A model generated the notes under the pieces. The model saw only the letters and a list, made by a program, of their open reading frames with translations. It had not been told where the DNA came from and did no database searches. The position numbers and the translations under genes were made by a program. 64,000 bases of DNA from NCBI GenBank assembly GCA_020055645.1, contig CM034546.1, forward strand, positions 136,545,875 to 136,609,874, read 5' to 3'. The DNA comes from Tomocerus qinae (lineage: Eukaryota; Arthropoda; Collembola; Entomobryomorpha; Tomoceridae). This document shows, in pieces, positions 21,915-61,878 of the stretch; position 1 is the first letter of the stretch, and the number at the start of each line of letters is the position of its first letter.

Positions 21915-22474
21915 ATGGCAAAAGTACTGTCGATAGTTATTATAACATTCTTAGCGTTAATATGCACAGTCTTGTCCTGCCGAAACTGCCACCAAACTGG
22001 CACTGGCAACAGCTGTCATCGCAAACGAAGTGTCAGGGCAGTAGCCAGTCAGGTTAGTTGTTTTTAATTAATTTAATTAATGTTCCAATTATTTTAATTG
22101 CTCAAGTTTATAATTTTAGATAATATTAAAATTCCCTAAATTAATAACATTATGCCCCTTTGTTTTAGGTTCAAGAACTTTTGCATTCTTTCGATGTGAA
22201 GCTGACTGAAGAACTGGCCAATGAAATTAGTGTAATGGGCACGTCAGACAGACAGGCTTTTCTACAAGATCTGCGTAAGATGAACCAAGCGGCTGAGGCT
22301 GAGTACAAGTCCCTGAGGGCCAAGGGCTCCTTGAGTAACCAAGAAATCATCCAGCAAGTATCTGACAAAGTCAGCCAAGATTTCAGCGACAAAAAATGGT
22401 TTCAACGACTCCAATCTTTAGCTGGCGACAAAATTTCCACCCTGGTTAACAACGATAATGGAAATGACATTTAA
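21915..22474 (+). CDS. Secreted Cys-peptide/helical-domain protein, family member 1
   Basis: A 147-residue precursor from exons 21915-22052 and 22169-22474 (phase-0 intron, CAG|GT...AG|GT). Exon 1 encodes a signal peptide (to about residue 20), the cysteine peptide CRNCHQTGTGNSC and the processing site KRSVR|A. Exon 2 encodes a Cys-free, charged, helix-forming domain: SFDVKLTEELANEI, FLQDLRKMNQAAEAEYKSL, QQVSDKVSQDFSDKKW and RLQSLAGDKI. I do not recognise the family. It should be secreted and cut by a furin-like protease into a short Cys peptide of about 17 residues and a C-terminal domain of about 105 residues. Exon 2 and both flanks are almost identical to member 4 at 28.6-29.2 kb, on the other strand. 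Its start is fixed by the signal peptide and an AAAATGGCAAAA context shared with other members. Confidence 0.8.
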
Positions 22475-24099
22475 GGCATCCATTTTTATTTCAACTGATG
22501 TACCATTTAAAAATATTATGTAATCAATAATAAAAAATCAAATAATTGAAAATATTGTGACCATCTCAAATGAAAAATAAAGAATCTAAAATAAAACAAT
22601 TTTACAATTTGTACGAAATGCTTTAGATTTGCAGTGGTAGATAATTAATCATAAATTTGTGCACCTGAAATGAACATAAAAATTATTCAGAGTTAAAATG
22701 TCTTATAGTAAAATGGTAATACCGAATAATTGATATGTAGTACACGCGTAATAACTAATATTTCGTTATTACTTCGTTTTTTGGCTGTAAATTGGTAAAA
22801 ATTCCGCGTACCTATACCTGTGTACGTTTGCTAAGTTAGATAAAAGGTATGTAAATGGAGGTAAGTGATAAGTAAATGTATAAGTAAAATGCATCAAAAT
22901 TTAGATAGATAAGTGCAATTTTACTAAAGGAGTAAGAATATTGATTTGAGAGACATGTTTTAGGTATCTAGCAAGAGGACAGTTTTGTTGCAGTCTCTGC
23001 AATCACGACCAATCATGGCAGAAACAGGAAGTAGGAGTATTTTTGATTCTAAAAAGACTAGTACCTACTTGTCAAAAAATGATTCAAGTCAGAGAAAAAA
23101 CGCGGAATCATAAGACACTTTTAGTTTTTTCAAGAGTATTTTAATGACTTTGAAACTATAATGCCCATTGGAATTAAATCGATTATTACGGTATTTATAT
23201 TGCTTTTTAAGGATGAAAAATACATCTTACAAGAAACAATTGACAATAGAAAAAAATGTATAAAAATAATAGTGCAAGGGATTACTACTATTATAGTAGT
23301 TATCCCTTGCACTAGCTAAAACTAGTAGTATACTATATAAGATAAAGTTAGTTTTAGCATTTTTAAAAGGGCTGGGTATCTCGGACTTGGCAGATATACT
23401 TTGCCACATTTACAAGGGTAGTCATATGATACGACATCATCACGAAGTCCTCTGTGCGATAGATATAAATCTGTTCTATCCTGATTTTATAATACTATAT
23501 ATATTTTATAACAAATGAATACCTACTTGTTTAAATGCCATTTATTAATTGCAACTGCACCAACGTTCTACATGGCTACATAATAACTACCTTTCAAAAG
23601 CGAAAAGTTAAGCAAAACTTACAGCTTTTTCGTAGGTTATTCGCTAACCAATTTATTAGTTTTCCAGGTACAAATATGTCTTCCTAAAATGTCCTTTTTG
23701 TTTAAAAATAGCTTAATTGTGAAAGGTAATCATTTCAAGTTTCCTTTACCATTGAATCGCCTAAAGCTGGAAATGATATCATATGAGACAAATCTCTTTT
23801 TTCCTTCCAAAAATAAAAATGACTTGGATTCTGAAAGTTCATGTTACAAGCTTATCGTTAGCTCTTCTCTATTAGCAAAGAGGAAAAAATAAACAAAAAT
23901 CGCAGGAAGAAAGTTTTTAAATTATAATGCTCAGTCTTTTATTAGTTATTGAAAATACAAAGTAGTATCGTTGCGGTTGCTTTGGTTTGGTCTAATTTTG
24001 GAGCATATATAGTCGGAAAAGATGATTATTGATTACTAAATAAATGGTTTGAGGTTTATTCCTAAATAACTAAAATTATTATTGTGTTGGGTACATCCG
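22475..24099. other. Spacer between family members 1 and 2
   Basis: Carries AATAAA signals just after member 1, a 43-bp hairpin at 23271-23313, and a TATAAATCTG stretch of no clear meaning. A 67-codon frame at 23689-23892 has no recognisable feature. No gene called. Confidence 0.5.
23271..23313. repeat. 43-bp hairpin with 20-bp arms
   Basis: AGTGCAAGGGATTACTACTA is followed by TTA and then the inverse of the arm with a single mismatch. It could be a tiny foldback remnant or the stem of a small structured RNA. Confidence 0.85.
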
Positions 24100-24199
24100 A
24101 AGAGGAAAACCGAATGAATTTCATAGAAAACGTGAATAATTTGCCCCTGATTACGTTTTGGTTTTCTGAGAGCATACTTAGCGTATGTTAGAAATTTGA

Positions 24200-24207
24200 T
24201 ATAAATA
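24200..24207 (+). promoter_or_regulatory. TATA box of family member 2
   Basis: TATAAATA 85 bp before the ATG; AAGAGGAAAA lies a further 100 bp upstream (24100-24109). Confidence 0.6.
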
Positions 24208-24284
24208 GTCGTTGTTTTACTTACACTTACTCAGTTCAAACCAATTGTTTCAACATCAGAGTTATTTAATTCTTTTTGAGAAAA

Positions 24285-24862
24285 ATGGCAAAAACTCTTA
24301 CAATAAGTGTCATTGCTTTCATGGCATTGATATGCACAGGTCTATCATGCTCAAACTGTAGCCAAAATGGCGATGGTAACACTTGTCACGGTGGCAAAAG
24401 AAGTGTCAGGGCTGCAGAAAACCAGGTTAAATACTTTTTAAAAATAATTTGGCTAAAGCTTATATACGCTTAAAATATTGAATAATTTATTTAAAATAAA
24501 TATTAAACCCTGAATCAAAATTGATTTTTGAAAATTTTGTGGTGATTTAGGTCCAAGAGATTTTACTTACTTTTGACGTGAAGCTGACCGAAGAACTGGC
24601 GAATGAAATCAGCCAAATGGGCGCATCCGATAAAGAGTCTTTCCTTCAAGATCTGCGTAAGATGAACGAAGCTGCCGAGGCTGAATACAAATCCCTCCGA
24701 GGTGCCAAGAGCTCTCTGAGTCAGCAGGAACTTGTGGAGACTGTAGCCAATAAAGTCAGTCAAGATTTCAGTAGCCGAAATTGGTACAAACGTCTCCAAT
24801 CTTTGGCTGGAGATAAAATCAATCACCTTATCAACAACCCAACTGAAAATTCAGACATTTAA
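24285..24862 (+). CDS. Secreted Cys-peptide/helical-domain protein, family member 2
   Basis: Exons 24285-24425 and 24551-24862 give 150 residues. Signal peptide MAKTLTISVIAFMALICTGLS, then CSNCSQNGDGNTC, then KRSVR|A, then the helical domain (TFDVKLTEELANEI, FLQDLRKMNEAAEAEYKSLR, VANKVSQDFSSRNW, RLQSLAGDKINHLINN) ending in ENSDI. The Ser-rich linker GAKSSLSQQELVETV is shared with members 6 and 9 and sets these three apart from members 1, 4 and 5, which have AKGSLSNQE or AKGSLSKQE. An in-frame TTG nine bases upstream is not needed; the ATG at 24285 starts the signal peptide. Same intron position and phase as all paralogues. A decayed 3' piece of a close relative follows at about 25.7 kb. Confidence 0.8.
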
Positions 24863-25335
24863 ACATAATTACCCAGAAAATTCATAATTTTCGTATGTTT
24901 AAGTAGAACAATATACAATGCGACTCTAACATTATTAAAAATGCAATTTATTTAATAATAAAGCTTGTAAAGAATAATATTATCATGGTCTGTTATTATA
25001 AATCGTACTACTTGATGACGAATAAATGCTGATATAATGAAAACAATTACAAACTTGCATATTCTATTTTATCGTTCAATCTGTTACTGCGTATGCATAA
25101 TACTACAGAGATGAACAAATATAACTAGGACACAGGGTTTATGCATAGCAGTGTCAGAAAATACATCCAAGGAGTTTTGGCATTGCCATGGTTCCTGATA
25201 CTTAACCTAAGTTACATTGCTTACCAACACTGCATAAGCTAATATTATGTCCTATGCGCATCTCTGTATGCAATCATCTATTACTATGGTGTTGCTATTA
25301 CTACTACAGTCTAGTGCTACGCAATTATTTGCATA
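24863..25335. other. 3' flank of member 2
   Basis: AATAAAGC near 24957 is the likely polyadenylation signal. No gene seen beyond it. Confidence 0.5.
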
Positions 25336-25343
25336 TACAGACT

Positions 25344-25620
25344 CAGTGTTCCATTTAAGCCGGCTAAAAATGATTTTGACCAGCCAGCCGGCTAAATTGG
25401 CTGAAATGGCTAGTGGCCAAAATGGCCAAAAATCATGGGTTTTCAAAATTCCCGCCAAATCAAGGATGATTTTCTCAGTTCACAGAGCCCCATTTGACTA
25501 TTTTTGGCCATTTTAGCCATTTTGGCCATTTTAGCCACTGGCTAAAAAGAATTTCAACCAGCCGGCGGGCCATTTTAGCCAGCCATTTTAACCAACCAGC
25601 CGGCTGGTCATCGAACACTG
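25344..25620. mobile_element. hAT-type MITE with exact 8-bp target duplication
   Basis: A 277-bp element starting CAGTGTTC and ending GAACACTG, flanked by TACAGACT on both sides (25336-25343 and 25621-25628). The interior is built from GCCGGCT, GGCCAAAATGGCC and TTTTAGCCATTTTGGCC units in inverted order, so it folds on itself. Non-coding. Confidence 0.9.
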
Positions 25621-27095: not shown

Positions 27096-27848
27096 ATGGC
27101 AAATATTTATTTTGCTGCAATGACTTTACTGACATTAATAATATGCTCAGTAAATGCATGCAAACATTGCACACAGTCTGGTAACGGTTTGCTTGATCTA
27201 AATTGCCAACAATGCACTCAGAATGGTAATGGAAATGTGTGCGGCAGTGGCGGAAGTAGTGGCGGTCGCTTACCGGGTAACACTGGCGGTGCTAATGGCA
27301 GACGACCTACAAGAGCGGCAACAAACATGGTACATTTATATTTAAGTACAATTATAATACATACATGCAATACTAACATACATACAATTACATACAATAC
27401 CTTGATTATTTTGGTTAATGAATTTGCATAATTTTGTACTAGCCACAAATAGGCAATCAATAATGTAATTTAAACAATTTAAAAAGCAATAATGTGTAAT
27501 AATAAATGATGATAATATCTCATAATAATCGTAAATAATATTATTTAGATCCAAGAGCTGTTATTGACATTTGACGTGAAGCTCACGGAAGAATTGGCCA
27601 ATGAAATGAATGAGATGAATGTATCCGAAAAGGAAGAGTTTCTTCAGGACCTGCTTAAAATGAATGAAGCTGCAGAGTTCGAATACAAGTCCCTGAGGAG
27701 TTCCAAGATCTCCATGAGTCAACAGGAAATCATAAAAACTGTAGCCGACAGAGTCAGTCGAGATTTCAGCAATAAACAATGGTTCAAACGACTCCAGTCA
27801 TTGGCTGGAGATAAAATTACTCACCTTGTAAATAATGCAAATAACTAA
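27096..27848 (+). CDS. Secreted Cys-peptide/helical-domain protein, family member 3 (duplicated Cys motif)
   Basis: Exons 27096-27329 and 27549-27848, 177 residues, the longest member. After the signal peptide (to about residue 21) the Cys motif is present twice: CKHCTQSGNGLLDLNC and CQQCTQNGNGNVC. A Gly/Ser/Asn-rich spacer of about 20 residues (GSGGSSGG, TGGANG) then leads to RRPTR|A, which keeps the R-x-x-R furin pattern although the usual KRSVRA is changed. The donor follows ATG (M|GT) and exon 2 starts IQELL. The helical domain is conserved (TFDVKLTEELANEM, KMNEAAEFEYKSLR, RLQSLAGDKITHLVNN). The gene shows that the Cys segment evolves by internal repeat gain while exon 2 stays fixed. Confidence 0.78.
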
Positions 27849-28640: not shown

Positions 28641-29187
28641 TTAAATGTCATTTCCACTATCGTTGTTAATCAGGGTGGAAATTTTGTCGCCAGCTAAAGA
28701 TTGGAGTCGTTGAAACCATTTTTTGTCGCTGAAATCTTGGCTGACTTTGTCAGATACTTGCTGGATGATTTCTTGGTTACTCAAGGAGCCCTTGGCCCTT
28801 AAGGACTTGTACTCAGCCTCGGCCGCTTGGTTCATCTTACGCAGATCTTGTAGAAAAGCCTGTCTGTCTGACGTGCCCATTACACTAATTTCATTGGCCA
28901 GTTCTTCAGTTAGCTTCACATCAAAAGAAAGCAAAAGTTCTTGAACCTAAAACAAATGAGCATAATGTTACTAACTTTGGGATATTTAATGCTGCCTAAC
29001 ATTATTAACTGGAACAATTTAAAAATTTAACTAAGTAGTAATAACTGACCTCACTGGCTACTGCCCTGACACTTCTTTTGCCACCACAGCTGTTGTTATT
29101 GCCATTTTGGCTACAGCTTGGGCATGATAAACCTGTGGATATCAACCCCAAAGATATTATGACAACTATTGATATTAATTTTGCCAT
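28641..29187 (-). CDS. Secreted Cys-peptide/helical-domain protein, family member 4
   Basis: Exons 29187-29050 and 28946-28641 on the minus strand, 147 residues. Signal peptide MAKLISIVVIISLGLISTGLS, then CPSCSQNGNNNSC, KRSVR|A, and a helical domain that differs from member 1 at very few positions (LLSF for LHSF, LINNDS for LVNNDN near the end). The similarity extends upstream through the TATA box and the AAGAGGAAAA motif and downstream into the 3' untranslated region, so members 1 and 4 are the products of one inverted segmental duplication. The Cys peptide itself has diverged much more than exon 2. Confidence 0.8.
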
Positions 29188-31613: not shown

Positions 31614-32155
31614 ATGTCCCAATTCTGTTTGAGTATTTTTGTATTTCTAACATTAACAAGCTTAGTAAGCGCATGCAAAAATTGTGAGCAAAATGGCAAT
31701 CACAACAGCTGCCATGGCAAAAGAAGCGTCAGGGCGGCAAGCAACCAGGTACGACTTATCTGATAAATTCTATGAAAAACCTGTAATTATGTAAATTTAT
31801 TAATATTTTAATCCGTGAAACGTTTGTTTGAATTTTCTGTAAATTTTAGGTACAGGAACTTTTAGTTACTTTCGACGTAAAGCTCACTGAAGAAATGGCT
31901 AATGAAATTAGTGCAATGAGCGCTTCTGAGAAACAGTCCTTCCAACAAGATCTAATTAAAATGAATCAAGCGGCTGAGGCGGAGTACAAATCTCTGAGGG
32001 CCAAGGGCTCCTTGAGTAAGCAAGAAATTATTCAGCAAGTATCTGACAAAGTCAGCCAAGATTTCAGCGACAAAAAATGGTTTAAACGACTCCAATCTTT
32101 AGCTGGCGACAAAATTACTGCTCTTGTTAACAACGATAGTGGAAACGACATTTAA
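31614..32155 (+). CDS. Secreted Cys-peptide/helical-domain protein, family member 5
   Basis: Exons 31614-31748 and 31850-32155, 146 residues. Signal peptide MSQFCLSIFVFLTLTSLVSA, Cys peptide CKNCEQNGNHNSC, then KRSVR|A. Exon 2: TFDVKLTEEMANEISAMSAS, QQDLIKMNQAAEAEYKSLRA, QQVSDKVSQDFSDKKW, RLQSLAGDKITALVNN, ending NDI. The central and C-terminal parts are close to members 1 and 4 even in DNA, while exon 1 is different, so this gene belongs to the same subgroup. Same intron position and phase. Confidence 0.8.
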
Positions 32156-32631: not shown

Positions 32632-35600
32632 TTAAAAACTATACATTCCCTGGGTATTGGCAAGTTTACCACTGATGAAATAATTTCCTTCTGTGTGGCT
32701 ATTAACAAATAGTTTTCTTGGAGGTCGATAATTTGTATCATCGGATGTAATAAAACTGGCTTCCATGCAACGGTTAGCCCAAAATTTCCCTCCTCTTTTT
32801 TTATATTTCCCAAGGATTAAATTGAATATCCTGTTGTCTCTTGGGTCAATCCTACAAATGTTAAAATGCCATTGATCAATCTAATTATTAATTCAAATTA
32901 GAAAATAATTACCATTCAGCTTCTAGAGGAATGAAAAACAAGTCGGTGTATTTTGCAAAGAACGCTGGAGTTAGAAAGGAATTTCGGTTGACGTAGGTTT
33001 CTGAAGCCATGCAAATACCCATGACAGTTGCAAATATTTTGAAGTGCATGTCAATGGCAAAATTGAATGGAAATTGCAGATCAGCCTGTTCTTTGTGAAG
33101 GTGAATGTCCTTCAGGAACTTCCCTGTGGCATTCTTCATTATTAATTGGAATTTAGCTTTACCCTGCAAATGAATACAAAAAACAGAACTTGTGTGATTA
33201 ATTTATTAAAATCATTTTCTGGAAAGGGAACTACGAGACTCCATATTTAATTGGATCATTTATACTACTCTTTTTATTATAACTCCTATTACTAATGATA
33301 ATAGTAATAATTTACTTTCCCATGTATAATACAATGTACAGAATATCTAAAATATTTTAGACGCCGTTTCCTGGCATTAACATTCAAATTCAGACAATAT
33401 ATTAAAAATATCTCATTAAATACAATATTATAATTATCTAAAATGTAAAGAATGTAAAGAAAATCAAGTTAAAAATTTCTGCAATATTATCAACCAATTT
33501 TTTGTTTCCTTTTTTTCATTTTCCAGTTTAACAAAATTAGATGCGAAATTTAATGTTACTACCAGGGTTGTGGGTCGGGTTTTTTATGGGTTGGGGTTTT
33601 TTGGGTTTTTTGGCAAAAAACCCACCCCGCTTTACTTAAAAAACCCCGGGTTTATTGGGTTTTTTGGGTTTTTTACAAAACATACAAAAATGTGCACTGC
33701 AGCTCCATCTAGATACGCAATACATACTAATTTCTATTCAAAAATGTAAACAAATGCATAGTCAGGTGAAAACAAATATAGCTTCTACACTTCTATAATT
33801 AATGTATCGTAATGTGAGGACTATAATAATATTAGTTTTATGTATACTTTAGTCATTGCATTGTGAAGATTATGTTTATAATATTAGTGTACACATAATT
33901 TCAATATATATATATCACTTACATATTCATTACTGTAATGCTTTGCAATTAAAGCTTCAAATTAACAAAAGAATAATTTCATAAAGTCAATATAATCAGT
34001 AAAATATTATAATACTTAATATTTCACTAGTTGTTATCAAACAGTAAAAATAATATAGGTAGGTGTTCACAAAAATACTGCATTTGCTGCTTACAACATA
34101 ATTAAATTAAACCTTTATGCTTTAATTTTTCTTTTCATTGACGTAAGTAATAGTAGTTGACACGGTTGTTGTTGTTGTCAGCTGTGGTTTTCATATATGG
34201 TATAGTATAGGCTTGTATTTATACCTATAGTTATATAAAAAACCCTTAAACCCAAAAAACCCTAAAAAACCCAAAAAACCCAAAAAACCCTAAAAAACCC
34301 AAAAAACCCGGGGTCGAGGGTTTTTTCCTAAAAAACCCGGGTTTTTCGATACCTTGGTTACTACCCCTATAAACCATGATTTACTTAATTCTAGGGCTGA
34401 TAATTCATTCGTTTGCATTACAAAACGAATTTTTGCATTGATTCCTTCGTAATTTCGTAATTTAAAAAAAAATGTTTACTGTAGTAAAATTGGAGTCACT
34501 ACACCATCAATTAGTAAACACTAATTTACAAAATGAGTTAATTACGCTGTAATCTGGATCTCGCTTGAACCTGAGACGTTTTTTCTCGTTTTTGCAATTG
34601 ATAAGTGCCTGTTTGATCTGAGGCCACGCCCCTTTGAAAGCAATGTCTCTCCCAGGTTTCGGAGTACGTATGTCAAAGCCCGCTCCACCGTTTGCTATTG
34701 CTAAAATAATGTTTACTATTGAATTAAAAGTAATAATGATAATTAAAAGAAACACCGGAGATTATTTACGTTTCAGAAGATAGCACTTGAAGATTTGGTT
34801 GATTCTTTTTGGAAAGCCTCTATCAAGTCGTTGACAAGCATGGGCAAAAATGTCTTCAATGAGATCCATAACTTCTACGAAATCTGAGCCGATGAGGTCT
34901 TTCACGGGAACAAGTGTTGGTAACGGGGTTGCAGGATCATTTTTTTCATCATGCTGGCAAATTTCAGGGTCCTCGGACATGGCTTTTAGAAAGTGACACC
35001 CTCGTTGCAAATCTGGTTTTGCTGATTTGCAGGAGTCTAAAATAAATGAATAGGCTTTTTCGTCTTATGTCGTCAAATGGTTTATTAAGTAGCGGAGCTG
35101 CTTTACAGGAATGACCGATCTGTCTGTCTGTCCGTTAGCACGATAACTCAAGAACGATTTAAGATAATCAATTCAAACTTTCTGTACGTCATCTAAAGAT
35201 AAAAAGTGTGGTCGAGTTCGAATTTGGACAAAATCAGACAGACTGTGGCTGTGGGCGTGGTTCAAAAACTAAAAATTGGTTTAACTTTAGTTATCGACAT
35301 TGTAGAACGTCATAAAATACTTCGTTTGAAAGATTACTCTTTAGGTCAAGTCAAGGTCAAGTCATAAGGGTCAAAAGGTCAAAGTTCATTGGAAAAATGC
35401 ACTAAAACGTGGAAAAGCCTGTTTATCTACTTTTTTACAGCAGTTGTCATGGTTTATTTGTTATTACCTAGTACTGTGGGTAGTGGCATGCAACTGTCAG
35501 GTTCAGCAGTAGCGTTGTATTTATATTTCTGTTCTATAGGTAACGTATCCGAAAGTATTTTTTTCGGTGGGGGTTCCCACTTCAATTTTGGAGTTGCAGC

Positions 35601-37863
35601 CTTGGCTTTTTGCCACGCCATGACGGAAGTCTTGGCCATTACTACTTTTTCTATATGATTCTGCCATTTCTTCTTTAATTCTATTGAATCCTTTTCCAAT
35701 TTCGTTTGTTCAGCTTCATATGCGGTTTTCGCTGTTTCCAATGCCGTTTTTGCCGTTTCCCAATCCGTCTTTTTGGTGGCGTCACTTTTGTCGGCGTCGT
35801 AAAGTTTAAATTTGTCATCAACGTCTTTCTGTGCTGTTGCAATGGCTTCAAATTTAGTTTTCACATCCCCTGTATCACCGAACCTTGTGGCCACATCTGA
35901 AAACGTTGTATTGAGGTCTGCGTTCGTAATTTCACAAGTGTCCTTGACAAGGGAATGCTTTGAAAATGCATCATTCTCGAACTTGGCTAAATCCAGCTTT
36001 TCTTGTAATTCTTTCATCTCTTTTGTAGCATCATTTTTCTCCGCGTCGGTTTTACTAGCATCGTTTATTATATCATTTTTATCCTTAATTTGTTGTGGTA
36101 AACCCGTATCAGCAATATCAGTCGTTTTGTCTGTTGGTTCTTCTGTAGCTGGTACAGGGTTTTTGGGATCAGCATAGAGCACTTTTTTATACTTGTCGCA
36201 TTCTGCACGTATACGTAAGTAATAATCGTCCCAAGTCATATTCAGGCTTGAGTGCAAACGTTTTAAATCTGTCGGTATTAATGGTGCTTCACTCTCGCAC
36301 TCTCCTTTCCTGATACTTTCGTCATTTTTAAGTAATTGTTTGAAATTGTAAGGATTAGGATCAGGAACAGGATCTACTGGAGGATCCGGTGTAGTGTAGA
36401 TAACATCAATATTCTGGTATGGCATTTTGCAGTAAGAGTATTTCTCTACAGGTCTTGGCTGCACTCTAATCAGAGTATTATCATTCCCCCTAAGAATTGT
36501 ACACTCCCTATTATTAATGGTCATTATTGACGTCGTATTTTCGTATATTGCAGTAATACTATTGTATAGTGGAGCAGTAAATAAATGGATAGATGGCAGT
36601 CTGTAGTCTTCATCAACGCCAAGCAGATAAACTCCCATCAACTGAAAAACCATTTTAAAACAATTCAGTTAAGGGTAGTTAATAGCGGGGCAACTTGAGC
36701 TTAAACTTTGTGTGTATTAATTAGTACTAGAGTGTAGCCCGTATTTATTTACCAAAGTCTTCAAAATTTCCAAAACATGACCGAAGGTGAACGTCTCGGA
36801 CATGTGGCTCAGGAAAATTTTTATTAAGTTTTGAATTATAGCGTTGACAGGAAATCATGTTACGCTATATTTCAAAACGTATTAAAGTTTTTTAATATTT
36901 TGAAGCCCCGAGTTTCAAACATTCATTTTCCTTCACTTTTTTGAAGACTTTTTTAAATAAATACGGGCTAAACTCTATTCCTAACTATTACACACAAAGT
37001 GTACGCACAAGTTACCCGCTATTAACCAAATTTAAAGTCCAACACACTTCTGATGATACTCAAATTTTCCGACTGGAGCATCTAGCCGTCTACTCAAGCA
37101 AATTTTATGAAATATACAAAAGAACAGAAAATTAAACCTTTACTATGTCTTACTATGTCTTCAGTCTTCAGACCGTTTTAAAGTCCCCTAGCTGACTTAA
37201 CATTTGGAATATGATTAAAGCTACAAAGCTTCCCTGTTTTACATTTAATATTATATTCTATTTAATTATACTAGAGGGTTTCGTTGAAATTAAGTGTGCT
37301 CTCCTCAATTAATGTGTAATGCCTATACTCTTGAAGATCGTGAATACTTTTCAGTTCTTCCGAGGTTTCATCGGAAGAACTGAAAAGTGACTAATTAACT
37401 CTAACACCTGTCAATTAACATTTTTCAAATTACGTTGTAATGTGGTACTTACAATAACTGGATCAGTGTGGCTTCCAGGACCGGGCCTTCCATTGAAAGC
37501 CTGGCACTGATGTTCATAAACGTGGAATTCAGGCTCATGATACACATCTCCAATTGCTGAATGCCGGGCATAATATAGCCACGCCCTGCAAGAATTTTAA
37601 TCTGATGTCAACGTAATTAATTACATAGAAAACTTTATAATTAAAATGATAGGCTCTTACGGTCCGTTTATACAGGCATACATATTACTATATTGATCTG
37701 TCGGATAAAATTTAGGTCCACCAGAGACTAGTTCGTCTCCCTGTCTATATTTGTATATCGTTATATAGGGTTTGAAGAGTTCCTCCTCGCTGCACCATTT
37801 AGAGTAGGTGGATACAACTTCAGAAGAATTGATAATCAAACAAATAATTGTAATCAGCAGCAT
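32632..37863 (-). CDS. Large secreted protein of unknown family, 800 residues, seven exons
   Basis: Exons on the minus strand: 37863-37661, 37585-37453, 36641-35468, 35036-34770, 34700-34546, 33163-32913 and 32851-32632. All junctions are GT-AG and phases match, giving one open frame to TAA. A signal peptide (MLLITIICLIINSSEVVS) is followed by an N-terminal region with scattered Cys and aromatic residues (SKWCSEEELFKPYITIYKYR, YYARHSAIGDVYHEPEFHVY). Exon 3 then has a Pro-rich link (TTPDPPVDPVPDPNPY) and a long Lys/Glu/Asp/Ala/Thr-rich stretch (NDATKEMKELQEKLDLAKFE, TAKTALETAKTAYEAEQTKL) that should form coiled coil. The C-terminal region of about 250 residues has Cys again and ends NTQGMYSF. 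I do not recognise any domain. Two transposons lie in introns: one of 794 bp in intron 5 and a dispersed repeat in intron 3. The model could be two genes, but phase agreement at every junction argues for one. Confidence 0.65.
33563..34356. mobile_element. 794-bp hAT-type element with telomere-like GGGTTTTTT ends
   Basis: Flanked by an exact 8-bp target duplication GTTACTAC (33555-33562 and 34357-34364). It starts CAGGGTTGTGG and ends CGATACCTTG. Sub-terminal regions are runs of GGGTTTTTT on the left and AAAAAACCC on the right, so the ends can pair. No transposase. It sits in intron 5 of the 800-residue gene. Confidence 0.85.
35095..35400 (+). repeat. Dispersed repeat with GACAGAC signature, copy 3
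   Basis: Contains TGTCTGTCTGTCCGTTAGCA, CGATAACTCAAGAACGATTT, GGGCGTGGTTC and AAGGGTCAAAAGGTCAAAG; it is the inverse of the copy at 17380-17720. It lies in intron 3 of the 800-residue gene. Confidence 0.7.
37346..37388. repeat. Hairpin with perfect 18-bp arms
   Basis: ACTTTTCAGTTCTTCCGA, a 7-nt loop GGTTTCA, then the exact inverse. It is in intron 2 of the 800-residue gene, 107-65 bp from the end of exon 2 (exon 2 ends at 37453). Confidence 0.9.
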
Positions 37864-39680: not shown

Positions 39681-42600
39681 ATGAAACCTGAAAACACGAA
39701 AACGAGTACTGAAGATGTTGAAGATTCGTATTTGCCTAAAAGTAGAATTTTGGTGAATATAATCGTTTTAGTCAGAGTAATTTGCTTTTTTGGTTTTATT
39801 GGAGGAGCTTTATACTCTGCTCTTCAAATTTTTTGGGCTGCAGAAGGTAAGTACAATATATCTTATTTATTTACAATGTATTTTGTATAGCATCACTACA
39901 GAATTATTTAAAAATTGAACTAGTTTTGTCTAATCGGCTTTAAATGCTGGTATTAAATTTTAAATGACTTAAGTACTTTTGTATTGTTTCTTGAATACAT
40001 ATATACTAAGTTAAAGACAAATTTATTTTTATGGAAGGGTTTGATTCTTAACGTTTGGTTGACAGATCTTCTGAAATTACAAAAATATCCAAAGCTACAT
40101 CCTGGATATTTTACAGAATTTTTGAATCGTGGAAGAGATGATTCAGATACAGAATGGGAGGTTTTTTATCCGTTGATTTTAGGCAAATATATTTATTGGG
40201 CCGTCGCTTATCTCCTTCTATCAAAATATGTTCCGGCTACATACGTAAGAACAGCAAACTCTATTCTAAATGCGAATATATTCCTGTACATATCAAAAGA
40301 TCTTTAAGTATTTACATATTCTTTTACTTTTTTAGTTTCTGACATTTTTATCGCCTTTGACATCATTTCTGTTTTTGGGGTCCCTTGTCGGTTGGTTGCC
40401 GATGACTATTCTCGTTTTACAGCCTACGACTTATTGGTTTTTAATGAAAATACGTAGCAAATCACTAATCTGGATTTTTACGATTGGAATAATTATGTTT
40501 CTGAACACTCCTCATTTAATTGTAAAATACCATGCTAAAATTTTTAATTTATTGCTTATTTGCTACCTTGACCTGTTACTCTTACTATTGCAATTATGAA
40601 AACGAATTTTATACGAAAATATACATTTATTGCTTTATTTCATACAGACTTTAATATCTTTAATTGGCGTAGAAGAAGACGAAAGACCTCATTTTACGAC
40701 TGTTTTATCATGGAATTGTTGCAGATGTGTCAGTTTCGTTTTTGCAATTTGGAATCGGAATGAAGCCAACTCTCTCACAACCTTATGGACAGGCATTTCC
40801 TACTGTTTTTACTTTCCTCTTACTGTTACAGGTCCTTTAATCATGTTCGATCATTACGAAAAACATGTAAGATGCCTACAAAAAACTGTTAATGTGATCC
40901 TTAATTTATTTAACCCATTTTAGAACTTAATTCATATTCTCAATTTATTTCCCATCCATTTCATGATTTTAAGAAGGTTTAAGAAGAATATTAAGAAATA
41001 CGAAACTATTTGTTTTCTTTTGTAATATAGATTCAAAACCAGCTCCTGCCAAAAATCAGTACCAAAATGCCTGCTAAATCTAAATGGTTGATTATGCTAT
41101 TACTTATTCGCGTCATTTTTATTTCTCTTTTATTGGAGTTTATTTTCCACTACTTTTACGTTCGACCTCTAGCCTTCTCAGAGCGGGCAGTGAAAAAAGT
41201 CAATCTTTGGGTCGTCTGCGGAAGCATTTACTGGATCGGTAAGTATGACGAAATCCAGCTATTTAATGTCCGGGGCGAACTGTCACATGTTACAGATTTA
41301 ATTAAAAGTATAGGCATGCATTGCTATAATATATCTAGTTACATTGACAAGAGATTTTTGTTTTTCAAGCCCTCAGGGAATAGGAAACCCGCCTACAAGA
41401 AATTCGGATTTTTTTAATTATAAGATTAAAGCTTAGAAAAGTTAATGTTATTATTGCTGAATTAATTTTTTGGATGTATGTACCACAAGTTTTGCTTATA
41501 AAGCAGTTTTGAAAAATTCGTTGATTTAATTTTAAAAAATATTTTTCAATTTTGTGCCACCGAAATAACAATTTTCTTGGCCGAAAGGTAAACTTTTGAC
41601 AATTGAATCGGGTAGAACACCTATGATATTGATATAGTTGGGACAATAAAACTTTCGAATATCGACCAAGTGAACTGTTAAAAAAGACACTGAAAATTTG
41701 ACTATAGGTATAGCATCGATCCAAGGATACAATATATAAACATTCTATCCTTGACTACATGTTATAACCAAGCTTGTTTAAACTTCCAGCGAAAAACAAG
41801 TTACTCTTAGTTAAAAGTGTGTTTACTGCAGGAGCACGGCTAATGGCTATTATTCATTTGGATTGGGTCGTATATGTTGTGAAAACAAAGGTTGAAGTAA
41901 GGTAGTGGTTCCACAAATACCTATTAATGTTATTGTTTTAATTAGGTTAGGCTAGGTGCCTCGAAAGCGGGTGCCCTGTGCATTTCATGGCGCGATTTTT
42001 AAAATGTGCAACCATTGCCTTACTTCAACTAGAACAAATAATATATTTTTATTGAATGAGAGGTTGTGAGAATCGTTTCAATTTTATAACTAGCATATTT
42101 ATATGATATGATATTAATTTAGGCAAGATATTCACATTCAAGTATCAAGTTATGTACGGCTTTCCATCTTTTATTGCGGAAGTTGACGGAATTGTAATGC
42201 ATCCACTTCCTACTTGTACAAGCTATATTCACCGATACTCTGTGCTTTGGAAAGACTTTGATCGTGGACTTTATTACTTTCTTATTGGGTTATTGCTCAA
42301 ATCTAAATAAATACAAAGTAAATATATTAACTGATTTGTATAAATAATATTTTTTATTGCCCAGGAACATTTATATTCCGACTGTGAAATTCCTTGACTC
42401 AAAAAGAAGACTTAATAGAGAAGTAAACAAATTACTGGCATCGTTCTTAACATTTGCTTACATTTATATTTGGCATGGAACGTCCTACTTCATATTCCTG
42501 TGGACATTTTTTAATTTCTTGGGTGTCACTCTCGAAAGAATTGGAAGCTCCATTAAAGTCCAAGTGGACAAACGTTGGGTATTCAGACAACTCAATAGCT

Positions 42601-42991
42601 GATAATACTAAGATATCATAATAAATTACAATGCAACTCTATTCTAAACATTTTCAGGAAGTGAAACCAATTACATGGGATTTCGTAATTGAACCAATCT
42701 TAACAGCCCCTTTGGCGGGCATGTCGTTGCTAACATCGTCTATTTTTTGTGGAAGTCTCCAATCAGCCAAAATGTTCTCTATGCGACTTTGGAGTGAAAG
42801 TATGATCAACAAAGAATAATATCGAAACTATTTGATAGACAATTATAAATTTAATTGCGGTTATTATTTTATTTACAGTGGGTGACTGCTATGTTTTGAT
42901 ATTTCTTTATTTCATGGCGCAAATTGGAGTTACAAAAAGAACATGGAGTCAATTTACAGGTGGCCTAAAGAAACATTTAAAGACTCAATAA
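39681..42991 (+). CDS. Hhat: Hedgehog acyltransferase (HHAT / rasp), MBOAT family
   Basis: A 530-residue multi-pass ER membrane enzyme that joins palmitate to the N-terminal cysteine of Hedgehog (in flies also Spitz-type EGF ligands). Exons: 39681-39846, 40066-40244, 40336-40521, 40648-40866, 41031-41238, 42123-42288, 42365-42578, 42658-42799, 42879-42991, in frame throughout. Family marks: SWNCCRCVSFVFAIWNR and YFPLTVTGPLIMFDHY in exon 4; FKYQVMYGFPSFIAEVDGI and FDRGLYYFLIG in exon 6 (Asp366, matching the essential Asp339 of human HHAT); and YIWHG with His412 (matching His379), followed by FLGVTLE in exon 7. Both catalytic positions are kept, so the enzyme should work. It is about 35 residues longer than human HHAT. 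The exon 6 donor (GG|GTTATT) and the end of exon 7 are less certain. Intron 5 is 884 bp and holds nothing recognisable. Polyadenylation signal near 43209. Confidence 0.88.
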
Positions 42992-44632: not shown

Positions 44633-45183
44633 ATGGCAAAGATTTTATCAGCAGGTGTTATTATCTTTTTAGCGTTAATATGCACAGGCTTAGCCTGCCA
44701 AAATTGCCATCAAAATGGCAACTACAACAGCTGTCATGGCAAAAGGAGTGTTAGGGCCGTGGCGAGTCAGGTGAATATTTTTTTCAATTATTTTATTTTT
44801 TTTCAAGTTGATAATTTTAGGTAACATTAAAAATAATAAAAAGTTAAAAGTAATATTCTGCTTTCATTTAGGTCCAAGAGCTTCTGCTTTCTTTCGACGT
44901 GAAGCTGACTGAAGAATTGGCCAATGAAATTAGCCAAATGGGTATGTCAGACAGACAGGCTTTCCTTCAAGATCTGCGTAAGATGAACCAAGCGGCTGAG
45001 GCTGAATACAAATCCCTCCAAGGTGCCAAGAACTCTCTGAGTCAACAGGAGCTTGTGGAGACTGTGGCCAACAAAGTCAGTCAAGATTTCAGTAGCAAAA
45101 GTTGGTACACACGCCTCCAATCTTTGGCTGGAGATAAAATCACTCACCTCATCAACAATCCAACTGAAAATTCAGACTTCTAA
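44633..45183 (+). CDS. Secreted Cys-peptide/helical-domain protein, family member 6
   Basis: Exons 44633-44770 and 44872-45183, 149 residues. Signal peptide MAKILSAGVIIFLALICTGLA, Cys peptide CQNCHQNGNYNSC, KRSVR|A, then SFDVKLTEELANEISQMGMS, FLQDLRKMNQAAEAEYKSLQ, VETVANKVSQDFSSKSW, RLQSLAGDKITHLINN and the tail ENSDF. It is closest to member 2 in exon 2 (shared GAKxSLSQQELVETV) although 20 kb apart, with unrelated genes between, so the family spread was not by simple tandem steps. Confidence 0.8.
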
Positions 45184-46247: not shown

Positions 46248-46853
46248 ATGTCCAATTTTTCTTACCTCGGAAGGTTTGTATTTTTTGCAGTAATAAGTTT
46301 AGTGGTGTCATGTAAAACACCCGATTTTTTGAAACCAACGTGTAACCAGAATGGAAATGGAAATAGTTGCCACGGAAATACTGCAGGACCGAAGCCGATT
46401 TGTAATTCTCAAGGGCTTGGGAATAATTGTGGGGGAAAGTTTGTTAGGGCAACCAATGAGGTAATTAACTTATTTATTTTATAAATCTTTGACTGGGACG
46501 ACATTAATGATATTTTATTGAATATTAGATAAATCAGAGAAATTTAATTTCAGGTTCAAGAACTTCTGATGTCATTCGATGCTAAGTTAACTGAAGAGGT
46601 TTCAGCTGAATTGAGCGAAATGAATTCGGCCGAAAAAGAGCAATTCCTACAAGATCTGCATAAAATGAATGATGCGGCCGAGGTTGAATATATATTAGTC
46701 AGAGACACCAAAAAGAGCCAACAGGAAATTATTCAAACCGTAGCAGACAAAGTCAGCCAAGATTTCAAAAACAAAAGCTGGTTCAAACGTCTTCGGTCTT
46801 TTGCAGGCGATAAAATTGCCCATCTCGTCAATAACGACAATTCTGATATTTAA
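46248..46853 (+). CDS. Secreted Cys-peptide/helical-domain protein, family member 7 (lost cleavage site)
   Basis: Exons 46248-46460 and 46554-46853, 170 residues. After the signal peptide (to about residue 21) the Cys region is enlarged and duplicated: TCNQNGNGNSC and, after a Pro-containing spacer, ICNSQGLGNNC. The usual KRSVRA is replaced by GKFVRA, so the R-x-x-R furin pattern is gone and the precursor may remain uncut. Exon 2 is divergent but clearly related: SFDAKLTEEVSAELSEMNSA, FLQDLHKMNDAAEVEY, QTVADKVSQDFKNKSW, RLRSFAGDKIAHLVNN. RLRSFAG is shared with member 8, so 7 and 8 form a subgroup and lie side by side. Confidence 0.75.
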
Positions 46854-47851: not shown

Positions 47852-48412
47852 ATGTCCAAAGTGTTATTTTTATGTGGAGTCATTTTGCTGGTAAAATTAT
47901 ATTCAGCCAGCGGATGTAAGCACTGCGAACAAATTGGAAATCATCTTTATGACACGGGATGTCACAGCTGTTATCAACGTGGAAACCACAACAGATGCTA
48001 TGGCAAGAGAAGTGTGAGGGCGACAACTAAGCAGGTTATTAATTTATTGCAACATCCATAAAATCAATTCAAATTAATAATTTTACTTTATACTTCTTGT
48101 CGTTAGATTCACGAACTTTTGCTTTCCTTTGATGCTGAAATCACAGCAGAAATGATTGATGAAATTCAAGATTGGAACAATTCTGAAAGGAAAACTTTTC
48201 TTGAAGATTTGCAACAAATGAATAAAGCTGCCGAGTCTGAATATCAATCCCTGAAAGACTCTAAAAATTCTATGAATCAAAATGAAATCCTTCAAAATGT
48301 TGCCGAAAAAGTAAGCCAAGATTTCAAAGATAAATCCTGGTTTAAGCGCCTACGTTCCTTTGCTGGCGAGAAAATTGCGTTTTTAGTCAATAATGGAATT
48401 TCGGACTCATAA
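47852..48412 (+). CDS. Secreted Cys-peptide/helical-domain protein, family member 8 (duplicated Cys motif)
   Basis: Exons 47852-48034 and 48107-48412, 162 residues. The signal peptide ends at about SASG21. Two Cys units follow: CKHCEQIGNHLYDTGC and CHSCYQRGNHNRC, then KRSVR|A. Exon 2 begins IHELLLSFDAEITAEM and continues FLEDLQQMNKAAESEYQSLK, NVAEKVSQDFKDKSW, RLRSFAGEKIAFLVNN. It is one of the most diverged members, but intron position, phase and domain order are unchanged. The first Cys unit resembles that of member 3 (CKHC...GN-x-L), so the duplicated form may be old. Confidence 0.77.
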
Positions 48413-50739: not shown

Positions 50740-52259
50740 ATGAAGAGGTAAGGGAACTCGTACTTAAGCTCATAGTTTAATTAATCCTAAAAGCATTTAT
50801 ACCTGGTATCTCCATAAATCAAAAATTAATATTAAATAAGAAGAAATCAATTATTTTCTTTAAAAAAATATAAATGCAGCAGATACAATCTCGGAATTCT
50901 CTTGCTGTTCTCCTTTCTTGGAAGTCTACAATGTCGTAATGACATCGTTAAGGCGATTAAATCTTCTGACATTTTTCCTTCTGAAGGAAAGTGGGGAAGT
51001 CCTGCATATTGTCCCACAGGAAGCTACGTAGTTGGGTACAACATTAAGCATCAAAAATTTCAAGGGGCCATTTCATCAACCATTTCGTCCGCCAAAAATA
51101 TTTGGGAGACTTCTAAAAGTTTATGGTCCAGCTACATAGGGAAATATTTTGGACCAAGTTCTTCCCGTCCAAAGTCTGCTTTTAAACTTAAGGATGACAA
51201 TGGATTGACTGGCTTGGCCCTAATCTGTGGATCCAATTGGACCAACAGAGCTAACACGAAGCGTATTCAAAGCCTTTCCGGCGATTTAGGGTCTTGGCAG
51301 CATGATCAGTTCTGCCCCAATGGGTTTGCTAATGGCTTTGAAGTAAAGGTTGAAAACCCTCAGGGATCATTTTCAGATGACGCTGGGATCACAAATTTCA
51401 AACTCAAATGCATTGGTTACCTTCTACCTGCTCATAGTTTAAGCTACGAACCGGGGGAATGGGAAGCTGAAATGGTTTGTCCCCGCAAATCATTTTTGTG
51501 TGGGTTAAAAACAAAAGTAGAAGAAATAGAAGAACAAGGTAAGTACGAATTTTTATTGTCAGTGTTTAAACTGGTTCTTGTAATTGTTTTAGCATTTCTT
51601 GATTTAGTCGCTATGAGTTTGTGTTGGGTTATAAGCACTGCATCAAGTTTACTTGCTGTAGAAAGTACAATATACCTAAGTAATATCCATTTCATATTTA
51701 CATTTTAAATAATAACTTTTCAGAGGACAATACGGGATTGAATTCTCTTGTCGGCTATTGCTGTAACGCCCCATTAGAAGTTAAGCAGAAAGACGAGGCA
51801 GAGACTTGCGAGCCAAACATTTCTTATCCGATGGTTTTTGAAGGGGATAACTCTGACGGTCACTTTGATAAGCAGTATTCCTACACTTTACGGATTGGTC
51901 TGGAAAGCCGGAAAGGAACGGGTTGGTCCAGTAGAAACACGGAAGGCACGTCCAAAGACAAAAGCTCTGCAGTGGACACTGAGGCTGGTGTTAATCTAAC
52001 AGTAGTTTCCGCCTTTCTTCGAAAACGAATCGAAGAACGACTCGGGAGTAGTTCGTCCACCGAGAAAGGCACATCAAAGGACTTCAGCAGTGCTTGGACT
52101 ACTCAGCAAGAACTTTCACAATCCGTGATTGTGCCTCAAGGATTTATAACACGAATCTATGAAGAGGTTGTCGACTGCGGATCATATCGGGTGTGGTCCG
52201 GCAGAATTAAATCAATCGATTCTGGCGGCGACGAATCATCAGGAAGCAATTATGCTTAA
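50740..52259 (+). CDS. VMO-I beta-prism joined to aerolysin-like domain, copy A
   Basis: Exons 50740-50747 (MKR), 50883-51538 and 51724-52259 give 399 residues. The first coding exon is only 8 nt; it is supported by the same arrangement in copy B. Signal peptide to about Gln19. Residues about 35-240 are three VMO-I repeats: WGSPAYCPTGSYVVGYNIK, SWQHDQFCPNGFANGFEVK and WEAEMVCPRKSFLCGLKTK, each followed by a GLTGLALIC-, GITNFKLKC- or GLNSLVGYCC-type strand, as in the egg vitelline membrane outer layer protein. The third repeat is completed by exon 3. The remaining 155 residues have the Ser/Thr-rich alternating pattern of an aerolysin-type core (YSYTLRIGLE, a charged S/T/K/E stretch around GTSKDFSSAWTTQQELSQ, then SVIVPQGFITRIYEEVVDCG). 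The aerolysin fold is shared by pore-forming toxins and harmless relatives; whether this one forms pores is unknown. VMO-I-like domains bind carbohydrate. Confidence 0.72.
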
Positions 52260-58152: not shown

Positions 58153-59688
58153 ATGAAGAGGTAACTTATTTACTAAATTCACGTTGTTAACCAGAGTTTG
58201 ATTAGTCATTCCCAACTATACGCTTAATCCGAATATTTAGATAAATCAAAAGTTAATATTAAATAGGAAGAGAAATAAACCAATTTTTTTATTACATTGC
58301 AAATAATGAAAATGTAACAGGTACAATCTCGGAATCCTCTTGCTGTTCTCGTATTTTGGAAGTCTGCAGTGCCGAAATGACATCGTTAAGGCGATTAAAT
58401 CCTCCGACATTTTTCCTTCTGAAGGAAAATGGGGAAGCCCTGAGTATTGTCCCACAGGAAGCTACGTGGTTGGCTACAACGTTAAGCATCAAAAATTTCA
58501 AGGGGCAATTTCATCCTCAATTTCATCCGCCAAAAATATTTGGGAGACTTACATAAATTCATGGTCCAGCTACATAGGGAAATATCTTGTGCCAAGTCTT
58601 TCTCGTAAAAAATCTGCTTTTAAACAAAATGATGACAGTGGATTGACAGGCTTAGCGTTGATCTGTGGATCTAATTGGGCCTCCAAAGCCAACGAGAGAC
58701 GCATTCAAAGCTTATCCGGTAATTTGGGATCTTGGCAGCATGATCAGTTCTGCCCCAATGGTTTTGCTAATGGATTTGAGGTAAAAGTTGAAAAATCTCA
58801 GGGATCATTTTCGGATGACGCTGGGATCACCAATTTCAAACTCAGATGCAATGGTAACTTTCTTCCTGCTCATGCTTTAAGCTACGAACCTGGGGACTGG
58901 GAAACTGAAATGGTTTGTCCAAGTAAGACTTTCTTGTGCGGGTTGAAAACAAAAGTAGAAGAGTTAGAGGATCAAGGTGAGAATGTCGATGCATGGCATT
59001 TTTTAAATGTTATAAATATAGTTAATACTTTAATATTGGTTAACTTCCCTGTTCGGTATTTTGATATTATTGTACATTTTGTTTTAATGAATATAAAAGA
59101 ATACGTTAATGATTTAATATACATTTTAAAATTAGTAATTATAACTTTTCAGAGGACAATACGGGATTGAATTCCCTTGTCGGCTATTGCTGTAACGCCC
59201 CATTGGAAGTTAAGCAGAAAGACGAGGCAGAAACTTGCGAGCCAAACATTTCTTATCCGATGGTTTTTGAAGGGGATAACTCTGACGGTCACTTTGACAA
59301 GCAGTATTCCTACACTTTACGGATTGGTCTGGAAAGCCGGAAAGGAACGGGTTGGTCCAGTAGAAACACGGAAGGCACGTCCAAAGACAAAAGTTCTGCA
59401 GTGGACATTGAGGCTGGTGTTAATGTAAAAGTAGTGTCGGCCCTTCTTCGAAAACGAATCGAAGAACGACTCGGGAGTAGTTCGTCCACCGAGAAAGGCA
59501 CATCAAAGGACTTCAGCAGTGCCTGGACTACTCAGCAAGAACTTTCACAATCCGTGATTGTGCCTCAAGGATTTATAACACGAATCTATGAAGAGGTTGT
59601 CGACTGTGGATCATATCGGGTGTGGTCCGGCAGAATTAAATCAATTGATTCTGGCGGCGATGAATCATCAGGAAGCAATTATGCCTAA
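58153..59688 (+). CDS. VMO-I beta-prism joined to aerolysin-like domain, copy B
   Basis: Exons 58153-58160 (MKR), 58321-58976 and 59153-59688, exactly the same exon lengths as copy A (8, 656 and 536 nt) and also 399 residues. The VMO-I part (exon 2) differs from copy A at roughly 30-35 of 218 residues, for instance in the loop after SSYIGKY and in NWASKANERR versus NWTNRANTKR. The aerolysin-like part (exon 3) differs at only about four residues, and few silent changes are seen there either. All three VMO-I Cys motifs (EYCPTGSYVVGYN, QFCPNGFANGFE, MVCPSKTFLCGL) and the VPQGFITRIYEEVVDCG tail are kept. The two copies are direct, 7.4 kb apart, with the chemoreceptor-like gene and a MITE between them. 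Confidence 0.72.
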
Positions 59689-61294
59689 TAATGGATATAT
59701 ACAATATCCAATGCTGTGTAGAATAGATCATTGCATTACAACAGCATTATTACTCTGTAATTCGTGCATTTGGTAACTTAAAATGTAAACCTGTCAATTT
59801 TATGTTGCTTAATGTTCCAAAATTTAAATAAAAATGACTCATCAGTCTGTATCGGTATCATAAAAATAACGCTTGAGAGGAATTTAACATTACATAACTT
59901 ACTGGCCTTTGATATAAGCATATAAATAATTGTATAATTGGAAAGCGTTTTGCTTTGAGATTTCTGAATAAAAATACTCTTATAATTTCCTTTCTCTTTC
60001 AATATGTGGTAATCTCATCTTGCTGAAAGCCTCTGTTTAAGAGTTAGAGATCCTTGATCTGTTGCAGATCTAAATGTTCAACTGTATAATATACATTGTT
60101 TAAGTAACAACATAGGCCCATATTAATTTAAAATTAAAATGAATAAGAAGTTCAAGGAACATTGACCACCTCTTTTCACCGACCGACAGTCATAAAAATA
60201 TTATTTTAAACTTAAAAATACACAAGCAAAGCTCAAACAGTTCAATACTAGATATAAACGCCCAATAGTACTTAAATCATTTCTTTGAGTGGATTAAAAA
60301 CTAACTAAAGCCCATGTAACTTTCGTTCTATTCATTTTACAAAGTTCGGCAATATCTTGTCCGACGGCCAAAAGATTCTGATGCAATACTATATCTACAG
60401 TTATCTCATAACAAGGGATGTGTATCTACTCAAAAAACAGAAAAGATAAACTACTCTGCTACTACTGCTACATAATATTTCCCCTTTTGGAATTTGGTTT
60501 TTGTCGCTAAATTTAATTAATTCATACTTACTAGCTGAAACCTAGCACGTACAGTGTGCTAGGAAAATGTACAGGGAAACATTCAAAAGGTTCCCGATCG
60601 GACTGTACATTATTTTATAGACTACATAATTCATTCAAATTTATTGAAGCATAATAATATATGTGACCCATTAAAACTAGTTTTGACTCCACACCTTTAT
60701 GGTGCTATTGTACTCTCCATTTATTTCCACACCAGATTGTTATGGTAATGACGCCATAAATTAACATGTGAATCAAAATCCGGACTACAAGGTGGAATGT
60801 ATCCACATCCGAATAAATCAGATTAGGTCTTCGGTAGTGCAATAATAGTATGTCGGGTCTTAAACTTTACCGCCACCGGGTCCAACAGCTAGTTTCAATT
60901 GGCTTATAATAGGCTCAGCTTATTCTCAGCCGAGTCTTTGGCTCCGGTTCAGCAAAGTCATCTATAGCCAATAACTAAACACACCTAACGTCCTAATTAA
61001 CGGTCCAACCTGCTACTGCGTAGGCAGTAAAACCCATTAGCTTAATTATTTTTGGGCAGGGTTTTATAAGGTTATCATGACTGTACAGCGTAAATGGTTG
61101 AAGTTTCTCCCCTTAATTGGAAATATAAAAATACATATGAAAATGTTCAGATATTATATTATTGATATATAATTGAGAGTGCACTATAACTACAAAGAGG
61201 AAAAATGAATTACTTTACTGGCTAGAAGGGAAACAAATTTTCGCCGGTTCCTTGTTTTATTTTTGTTATTGAATTTTATAAAGGAGAAATCTGG
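59689..61294. other. Spacer upstream of family member 9
   Basis: AT-rich. A short hairpin CCTAGCAC...GTGCTAGG lies at 60541-60563. AAGAGGAAAAA at 61195-61205 is the shared upstream motif of the family. CCCATTAGCTTAATTATT near 61032 resembles CCTCATTAGCCTAATTATT upstream of member 1. Confidence 0.5.
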
Positions 61295-61302
61295 TATAAA
61301 TA
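61295..61302 (+). promoter_or_regulatory. TATA box of family member 9
   Basis: TATAAATA 90 bp before the ATG at 61385. Confidence 0.6.
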
Positions 61303-61384
61303 GGTCGACTCAGGCAACAGTATTGCATTCAGCTATTTGAGGGCTTATTAAATCCCAACATTTCGGTTGGAAGTATCAGAGAAA

Positions 61385-61878
61385 ATGGCAAAAGTTCTGT
61401 CGGTAAGTTCTTTTACATTTTTGGCATTGGTAAGCATAGGTCTGTCATGCCAAAACCCACTCACGTCGTTTTTAATGAAAAGGAGTACCAGAGCAGTAAC
61501 CAATCAGGTAAATATAATTTTTTTATATTTTCAATATTTTATAAAATCCATTGTTATAGGAATGATTACTTTTAGGTAGAAGAACTTATACTTTCGTTCG
61601 ACTATAAACTCACTGAAGAGTTGGCCGATGAAATTAATGGAATGAGCACATCAGAAAAGCAAGAGTTCATACAAGATCTGCGTAAGATGAACCAAGCGGC
61701 CGAGGCTGAGTATAAATCCCTTAAAGGTGCCAAGAAGTCTCTAAGTCAGCAACAACTTGTAGAGACTGTAGCCAACAAAATAGGTCAGGATTTCAAGACC
61801 AAAAGTTGGTTCAAACATCTTCAATCCTTTGCTGGCGATAAAATTACTCGCCTTATTAATGAATCAACTGGAAATTGA
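61385..61878 (+). CDS. Secreted Cys-peptide/helical-domain protein, family member 9 (degenerate Cys peptide)
   Basis: Exons 61385-61507 and 61576-61878, 141 residues, the shortest member. Signal peptide MAKVLSVSSFTFLALVSIGLS, then CQNPLTSFLMKRSTR|A: only one Cys of the usual three or more remains and the Q-x-G-x2-N core is gone, yet the R-x-x-R site is kept. Exon 2 is normal: SFDYKLTEELADEINGMSTS, FIQDLRKMNQAAEAEYKSLK, VETVANKIGQDFKTKSW, LQSFAGDKITRLIN. So here the helical domain is maintained without the Cys peptide, which suggests that the C-terminal domain has a function of its own. An upstream in-frame ATG at 61367 would add six residues; the ATG at 61385 fits the family. Confidence 0.75.

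Follow-up and report, generated by a model that had tools for sequence, protein, structure and literature searches.

What is made by nine neighboring genes that each join a fast-varying, Cys-containing peptide to a conserved, Cys-free domain in the genome of the springtail Tomocerus qinae? The genes lie in a stretch of 64,000 nucleotides of contig CM034546.1 (assembly GCA_020055645.1; C1:136545875-136609874), hereafter the window, in which an earlier note, made from the letters alone, had described nine paralogues of a secreted precursor with two possible products. We tentatively favor an answer of this kind: the genes may well encode furin-cut, two-product secreted precursors with the layout of Drosocin and Buletin, in which the peptide is a diversifying effector and host defense the most likely setting.

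All nine two-exon models were rebuilt in the window at the positions first noted and are numbered g1 to g9 in order of position; all but g4 are on the forward strand. In g1, exon 1 (21915..22052) encodes a signal peptide, a three-Cys peptide and the basic site KRSVR/A, where the slash marks the predicted cut, and exon 2 (22169..22474) encodes the helical domain. As the earlier note had described, every intron interrupts the frame in phase 0 at the same codon (nine of nine genes; 68–219 nt, all GT-AG), and the second exon is free of Cys in all nine. A nucleotide search of the window with g1 exon 2 as the query (nhmmer) returned exactly nine matches at E ≤ 1, and the weakest of them, at E 1.6e-23, excludes chance. 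Across the exon-2 products of these genes, 29 of 103 columns are invariant. A TATAAA box starts 84–94 nt upstream of the ATG in six of the nine genes, against a background of 4.2% of 2387 ATGs with a box at −115..−78. The exons had been said to match the products, and the borders do lie near each other, but the intron falls four to five codons past the cut site in the nine genes, so the coincidence is close rather than exact.

The peptide and its cut site proved less uniform than had been stated. The motif C-x2-C-x-Q-x-G-x2-N-x-C, given for all nine genes, is exact in seven; g7 (exon 1, 46248..46460; exon 2, 46554..46853) lacks the first CxxC and has five Cys with two C-x8-C loops, and g9 (61385..61507 and 61576..61878) lacks the Cys loop and keeps a single Cys, the first. 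Cys repeats are doubled in g3 (27096..27329 and 27549..27848), which also has a Gly-rich linker, and in g8 (47852..48034 and 48107..48412). Likewise, KRSVR/A is exact in six of the nine, g8 among them, and is replaced by RPTR/A in g3, KFVR/A in g7 and RSTR/A in g9; what all nine share, together with the two further intact members found elsewhere in the genome (L003 and L007, below), is [KR]-x-x-R/A, in the form RxxRA in 10 of these 11 and KxxRA in g7. The letters of the site thus vary among members (KRSVR, RPTR, RSTR, RNRR) while the basic site and the Ala are retained. The two exon-2 motifs reported as shared are not universal either, with SFDVKLTEELANEI exact in three and RLQSLAGDKI in six of the nine window genes. 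Cys patterns across the intact members comprise C-x2-C-x8-C, doubled forms, C-x9-C (L003) and C-x7-C-x4-C (L007). The number of Cys per peptide ranges from one to five and is odd in all nine window genes and in 10 of 11 intact members; L003, with two, breaks an odd number as a family rule.

Cleavage by signal peptidase follows the −3, −1 rule, and small residues occupy both positions ahead of the first peptide Cys in all 11 intact members, so cleavage is predicted directly before this Cys, which would become mature residue 1 in all 11 precursors, g9 included. In the window genes the predicted peptide spans 15–52 residues with its cut site and the domain 103–108, at net charges of +1.8 to +4.9 for the peptide (cut-site residues included) and −2.1 to −7.0 for the domain.

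In the favored scheme, removal of the signal peptide would place Cys at residue 1, and a furin-type protease would cut after R-x-x-R (K-x-x-R in g7), ahead of the invariant Ala, yielding a short Cys peptide that varies fast and an acidic domain that is conserved, lacks Cys and is predicted to be all-helical. Both products would be released, as happens with the Drosophila pair Drosocin and Buletin; the peptide would act as a diversifying effector and the helical domain as a conserved second product. It is this Drosocin/Buletin-like layout that favors a family of two-product secreted effectors, and tandem clustering, copy decay and turnover of the peptide fit such a family. From the earlier proposal of a two-product precursor, the two-exon family stands, as do its signal-like beginning and its basic cut site, which is here seen to persist while its letters change, but function, including a role in defense, is something we infer, here from the layout, the turnover and the ecology of a soil animal.

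Several observations weigh against this reading. By inspection, the positive charge of the peptide comes mostly from the cut-site residues and the core without them carries little charge, which leaves a cationic antimicrobial poorly supported; with one to five Cys per peptide, no known six-Cys defense peptide of springtails fits; the Cys peptide is missing from a distant homologue that has the domain (L028, below); and the Lys at P4 makes g7 a weak furin site. In the Drosophila precedent, Buletin was inactive in vitro according to the part of the source consulted (PMC9233930). A weak point on the same side is that no kappa-B-like site occurs in the 600 bp upstream of the nine genes, an absence that says little because the background mean is only 0.05–0.12 per stretch; GATA, E-box, STAT and heat-shock element motifs upstream of the nine genes were not clearly over background.

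Comparison of the paralogues revealed a conserved, partly homogenized domain joined to a peptide that diverges in sequence and Cys pattern. Among the 11 intact members (55 pairs), the domain has a mean pairwise identity of 0.63, whereas the peptide averages 0.33 and the signal 0.35. Purifying selection acts on the domain: ratios of nonsynonymous to synonymous divergence (dN/dS) are 0.07–0.22 for exon 2 in pairs with finite dS, many of which are near saturation. Within exon 2, g4 (exon 1, 29050..29187; exon 2, 28641..28946; reverse strand) is 97–98% identical to g1 in each third at the DNA level (dS = 0.08), compared with 73–81% in signal, peptide and intron. The second exon of g6 (44633..44770 and 44872..45183) is a mosaic, closer to g1 in its 5′ third and to g2 (24285..24425 and 24551..24862) in the rest. 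Six mosaic tests were run, picked after the identities had been seen: for g6, only four of 20000 shuffles did as well with g1 and g2 as sources and 15 of 20000 with g4 and g2; g9 was intermediate (67 of 20000). Exchange involving g5 (31614..31748 and 31850..32155) was rejected, as its three two-block tests were unsupportive (9241, 20000 and 20000 of 20000 shuffles reached the value). Given the identity patterns of g1/g4 and g6, exchange of exon 2 between paralogues is the simplest reading.

The family, given as nine genes from the window, has further copies elsewhere. We searched the whole genome (334,443,149 bases in 115 contigs) with exon 2 of g6, g8 and g7, which yielded at least 15, 15 and 16 matches, respectively; a 24-residue query missed the family in this genome although it is present there. 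Two further genes have open exons, L007 at C1:136.636 Mb and L003 at C1:31.503 Mb, bringing the intact members to 11. Among 14 copies of the two-exon type, three are broken or partial: L009 has a stop in exon 1, L012/L015 carries frameshifts, and L014 is a 3′ fragment at 132.94 Mb. The main cluster occupies 136.57–136.67 Mb, and L003 and L012 are the only two-exon copies found outside it, the fragment L014 apart. A more distant relative, L028 (C1:103.434 Mb), is a single-exon open reading frame (196 residues) that opens with a signal-like stretch and contains the domain but no Cys peptide. It scored 42.2 bits against the family profile (best of 2000 shuffles, 13.7), and the reverse search from L028 recovered the family at E 3.2e-5.

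In L028 the domain stands on its own, which speaks for more than a carrier's part and weakens a carrier-only role. One may go further and take the domain as the sole product of importance, with the Cys exon a removable pro-region that perhaps joins precursors through an unpaired Cys. The domain is indeed more constrained than the peptide, and the peptide varies in length and Cys content, with the odd Cys number of 10 of the 11 members suiting such joining. We nevertheless consider this alternative unlikely, since the exact Cys motif in seven of nine window genes, together with a proportion of nonsynonymous differences below that of synonymous ones (pN < pS) in 35 of 36 peptide pairs, the exception being g1–g4, indicates that the peptide is constrained too.

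The domain itself was matched to no known family, and the precursors are apparently unnamed. No relatives were found in a set of 5.8 billion proteins, Pfam, NCBIfam or the PDB, in line with the earlier note, to which no described family of this layout was known; the same protein set does hold a springtail relative of a neighboring gene (HHAT-like, below). For exon 2 of the 11 members, the best Pfam and NCBIfam matches had E 0.0027 (two members) and 0.0019 (one member), the families matched by most members reached four of 11 (best E 0.018–0.042), and all scores lay below the curated cut-off wherever cut-offs were shown (four precursors; member 1). The best PDB sequence match of exon 2 had E 0.25. 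Structure prediction, suggested in the earlier note, returned an all-helical domain but no consistent fold match: the top matches of two models disagree, so we claim no fold (a viral structure library was compared with the first model only). A viral origin was also rejected, as 105 stretches of viral contigs matched a pattern and none was confirmed. Among the matches listed from literature on springtail peptides, neuropeptides, HHAT and genome families, with subscription journals and bioRxiv mostly outside the coverage, no description of the family was recognized.

Inside the cluster, 7.5 kb after g5 and 1.6 kb before g6, lies an HHAT-like gene of the MBOAT type (39681..42991, forward strand; nine-exon model with an uncertain exon 3/4 junction). 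HHAT accounts for each of its three PDB matches at E ≤ 10 (best E 3.8e-21), the active-site region retains its Asp and His, and IWHG, with the invariant His, aligns with WHG of human HHAT. The best protein match is HHAT of the springtail Allacma fusca (41% over 96%, E 7.8e-122), followed by a JGI protein (46% over 58%) and, as the next named one, a snail protein (24%); 7998 candidates were scored, of which five passed E 1e-10. One exon of the gene has four matches in the genome: the window itself, C1:31.480 and C1:31.933 Mb (71%), and C4 (44%). In the tree, the window gene and the two 31 Mb copies form a 99/99 clade, outside which stand the C4 copy, Allacma HHAT and the JGI sequence in an unresolved mutual order. 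Between the window gene and the 31 Mb copies, dS is 0.88–0.90 and dN 0.16 (dN/dS 0.18–0.19; 483 and 479 codons), and this low dN relative to dS indicates that the paralogue is constrained.

Such a gene suggests a different fate for the precursors, in which the linked HHAT-like paralogue would acylate the exposed N-terminal Cys and a furin-type cut would free the domain. HHAT targets an N-terminal Cys, and the first ∼6–11 residues of a substrate suffice, according to the part of the source consulted (PMC8061759). Besides the constraint on the paralogue and its place in the cluster, acylation draws on the 31 Mb copies, which lie ∼20 and ∼17 kb from L003 and L012, and on the predicted residue-1 Cys of all 11 intact members, kept even by the loop-less g9. 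The linkage can be explained otherwise, however. At 31 Mb the two regions duplicate each other almost exactly (93.8–99.8% identity in most collinear pieces), so linkage there counts as one event, and a window open reading frame at 32909–33202 (reverse strand) matches both regions, twice each, at 32–33% over 66 residues, so that a third gene also seems common to the window and the 31 Mb block. One old block duplication, followed by one recent copy, would account for the arrangement, and the functional case then depends on retention of the pair and on the presence of Cys 1 in 11 of 11. No HHAT-like match was found near L014 (132.94 Mb) or L028 (103.43 Mb). As a separate observation on the 31 Mb regions, a tandem repeat of ∼370 bp gave shifted matches between C1:31476001-31486000 (L050) and C1:31928001-31938000 (L053).

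The N-termini also fit poorly with what is described for Shh, where residue 2 is G, S, A, P or Q, a K or R falls within the first seven residues, and Lys at position 2 is not tolerated (PMC8061759, same part). Both rules hold for one of the 11 intact members, L007; position 2 is Lys in four members, another four pass at residue 2 but show no K or R in the first seven, and in g1 and L003 residue 2 is outside those covered there. The two Cys of L003 could, moreover, pair with each other. Acylation of the precursors consequently strikes us as rather improbable, and we give a slim chance to its fuller version, in which a dedicated HHAT paralogue would have been recruited to lineage-specific effectors, the acylated variable Cys peptide and the cut-off helical domain making with it a candidate three-part lipid-peptide system beyond the Hedgehog and EGF ligands.

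Other neighbors in the window encode GH9, MBT and VOMI domains, and matches of gustatory-receptor and Tweedle-like type fall below cut-offs, a set that suits an arthropod genome. Tandem, lineage-specific families are common in tissues that form cuticle, egg coat, saliva and seminal fluid, and the precursors might thus serve as structural or glandular secretions of this sort instead of in defense. The Tweedle-like match just under its cut-off and the two VOMI genes among the neighbors speak for this, but these genes belong to other families and provide no tissue link for the present one, and we hold a glandular role to be improbable. As observations in their own right, the two VOMI-domain paralogues (50836–52259 and 58310–59688, forward strand; E 4.4e-28 and 6.2e-30) continue beyond the domain into a segment that resembles aerolysin-type pore-formers by eye and gave no convincing Pfam match. 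An open reading frame at 18321–19484 (reverse strand; 387 amino acids, signal-like start, no Pfam match) shows a repetitive pattern suggestive by eye of a parallel beta-helix, and another at 35454–36668 (reverse strand; no Pfam family, best E 0.074) resembles open reading frames at 31 Mb by eye only. An inverted repeat (11451–12481 / 13284–14314) has 1031-nt arms that are 100% complementary with 802 nt between them; it may be a mobile element or an artefact of the assembly, or may have arisen very recently by inverted duplication.

A peptide-hormone-like precursor, with the peptide amidated at G-K-R or G-R-R and the domain as an associated peptide, is very improbable: G[KR]R does occur within the peptide of six of the nine window genes (g2–g6 and g8), but the peptides of g1, g7, g9, L003 and L007 lack it (the L007 match falls in the domain) while [KR]-x-x-R/A is universal, the peptides differ between paralogues, and none of the 39 known genes whose precursors are reported in the consulted part of a neuropeptide survey of non-pterygote hexapods, springtails included, was recognized as this family (PMC4770511).

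Springtails abound in soil. Their defense peptides have so far been catalogued through homology to insect families, as described in the part of the source consulted (PMC10051947). In the present, apparently unnamed family the domain is conserved and the peptides vary, one exon bears signs of exchange between paralogues, and the processing scheme is open to test. Compared with the earlier account, the analysis adds the uneven conservation, the signs of exon-2 exchange, the copies outside the window, a homologue that lacks the Cys peptide, and the acyltransferase paralogue linked to the family. Should the linked HHAT-like enzyme act on the family, the known substrates of its enzyme class would reach beyond developmental ligands.

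Among known systems, vasopressin and inotocin precursors place a short Cys peptide right after the signal and a larger, Cys-rich neurophysin behind it. The present precursors resemble them in the Cys peptide directly behind the signal, the larger domain that follows and, in some members, a GKR, but the lack of any Cys in exon 2 (nine of nine) rules out membership in the inotocin-neurophysin family. Diapausin, Alo and defensin of springtails are likewise Cys peptides that are secreted and encoded by varying numbers of genes; they differ in having six Cys in fixed patterns, whereas the peptides here have one to five, mostly in C-x8-C loops, and are joined to a second domain, and membership in these families was rejected on the Cys patterns (PMC10051947, same part). 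Hedgehog and Spitz, the substrates of HHAT/Rasp, start at a Cys that signal peptidase uncovers, as is predicted for the present precursors, which have an HHAT-family gene nearby, but they are unrelated in family scans and most N-termini here violate the Shh-derived rules (PMC8061759, same part). The closest layout is that of Drosocin (+5.1) and, behind it, Buletin (−1.9, predicted helical), which are separated by an RVRR furin site and each aid defense in vivo; compared by layout, the Drosophila peptides are proline-rich and the C-terminal product has 22 residues rather than ∼100, and what the two systems have in common is a signal peptide, a short first peptide, a cut of R-x-R-R type, an acidic helical C-terminal product and restriction to a lineage (PMC9233930, same part).

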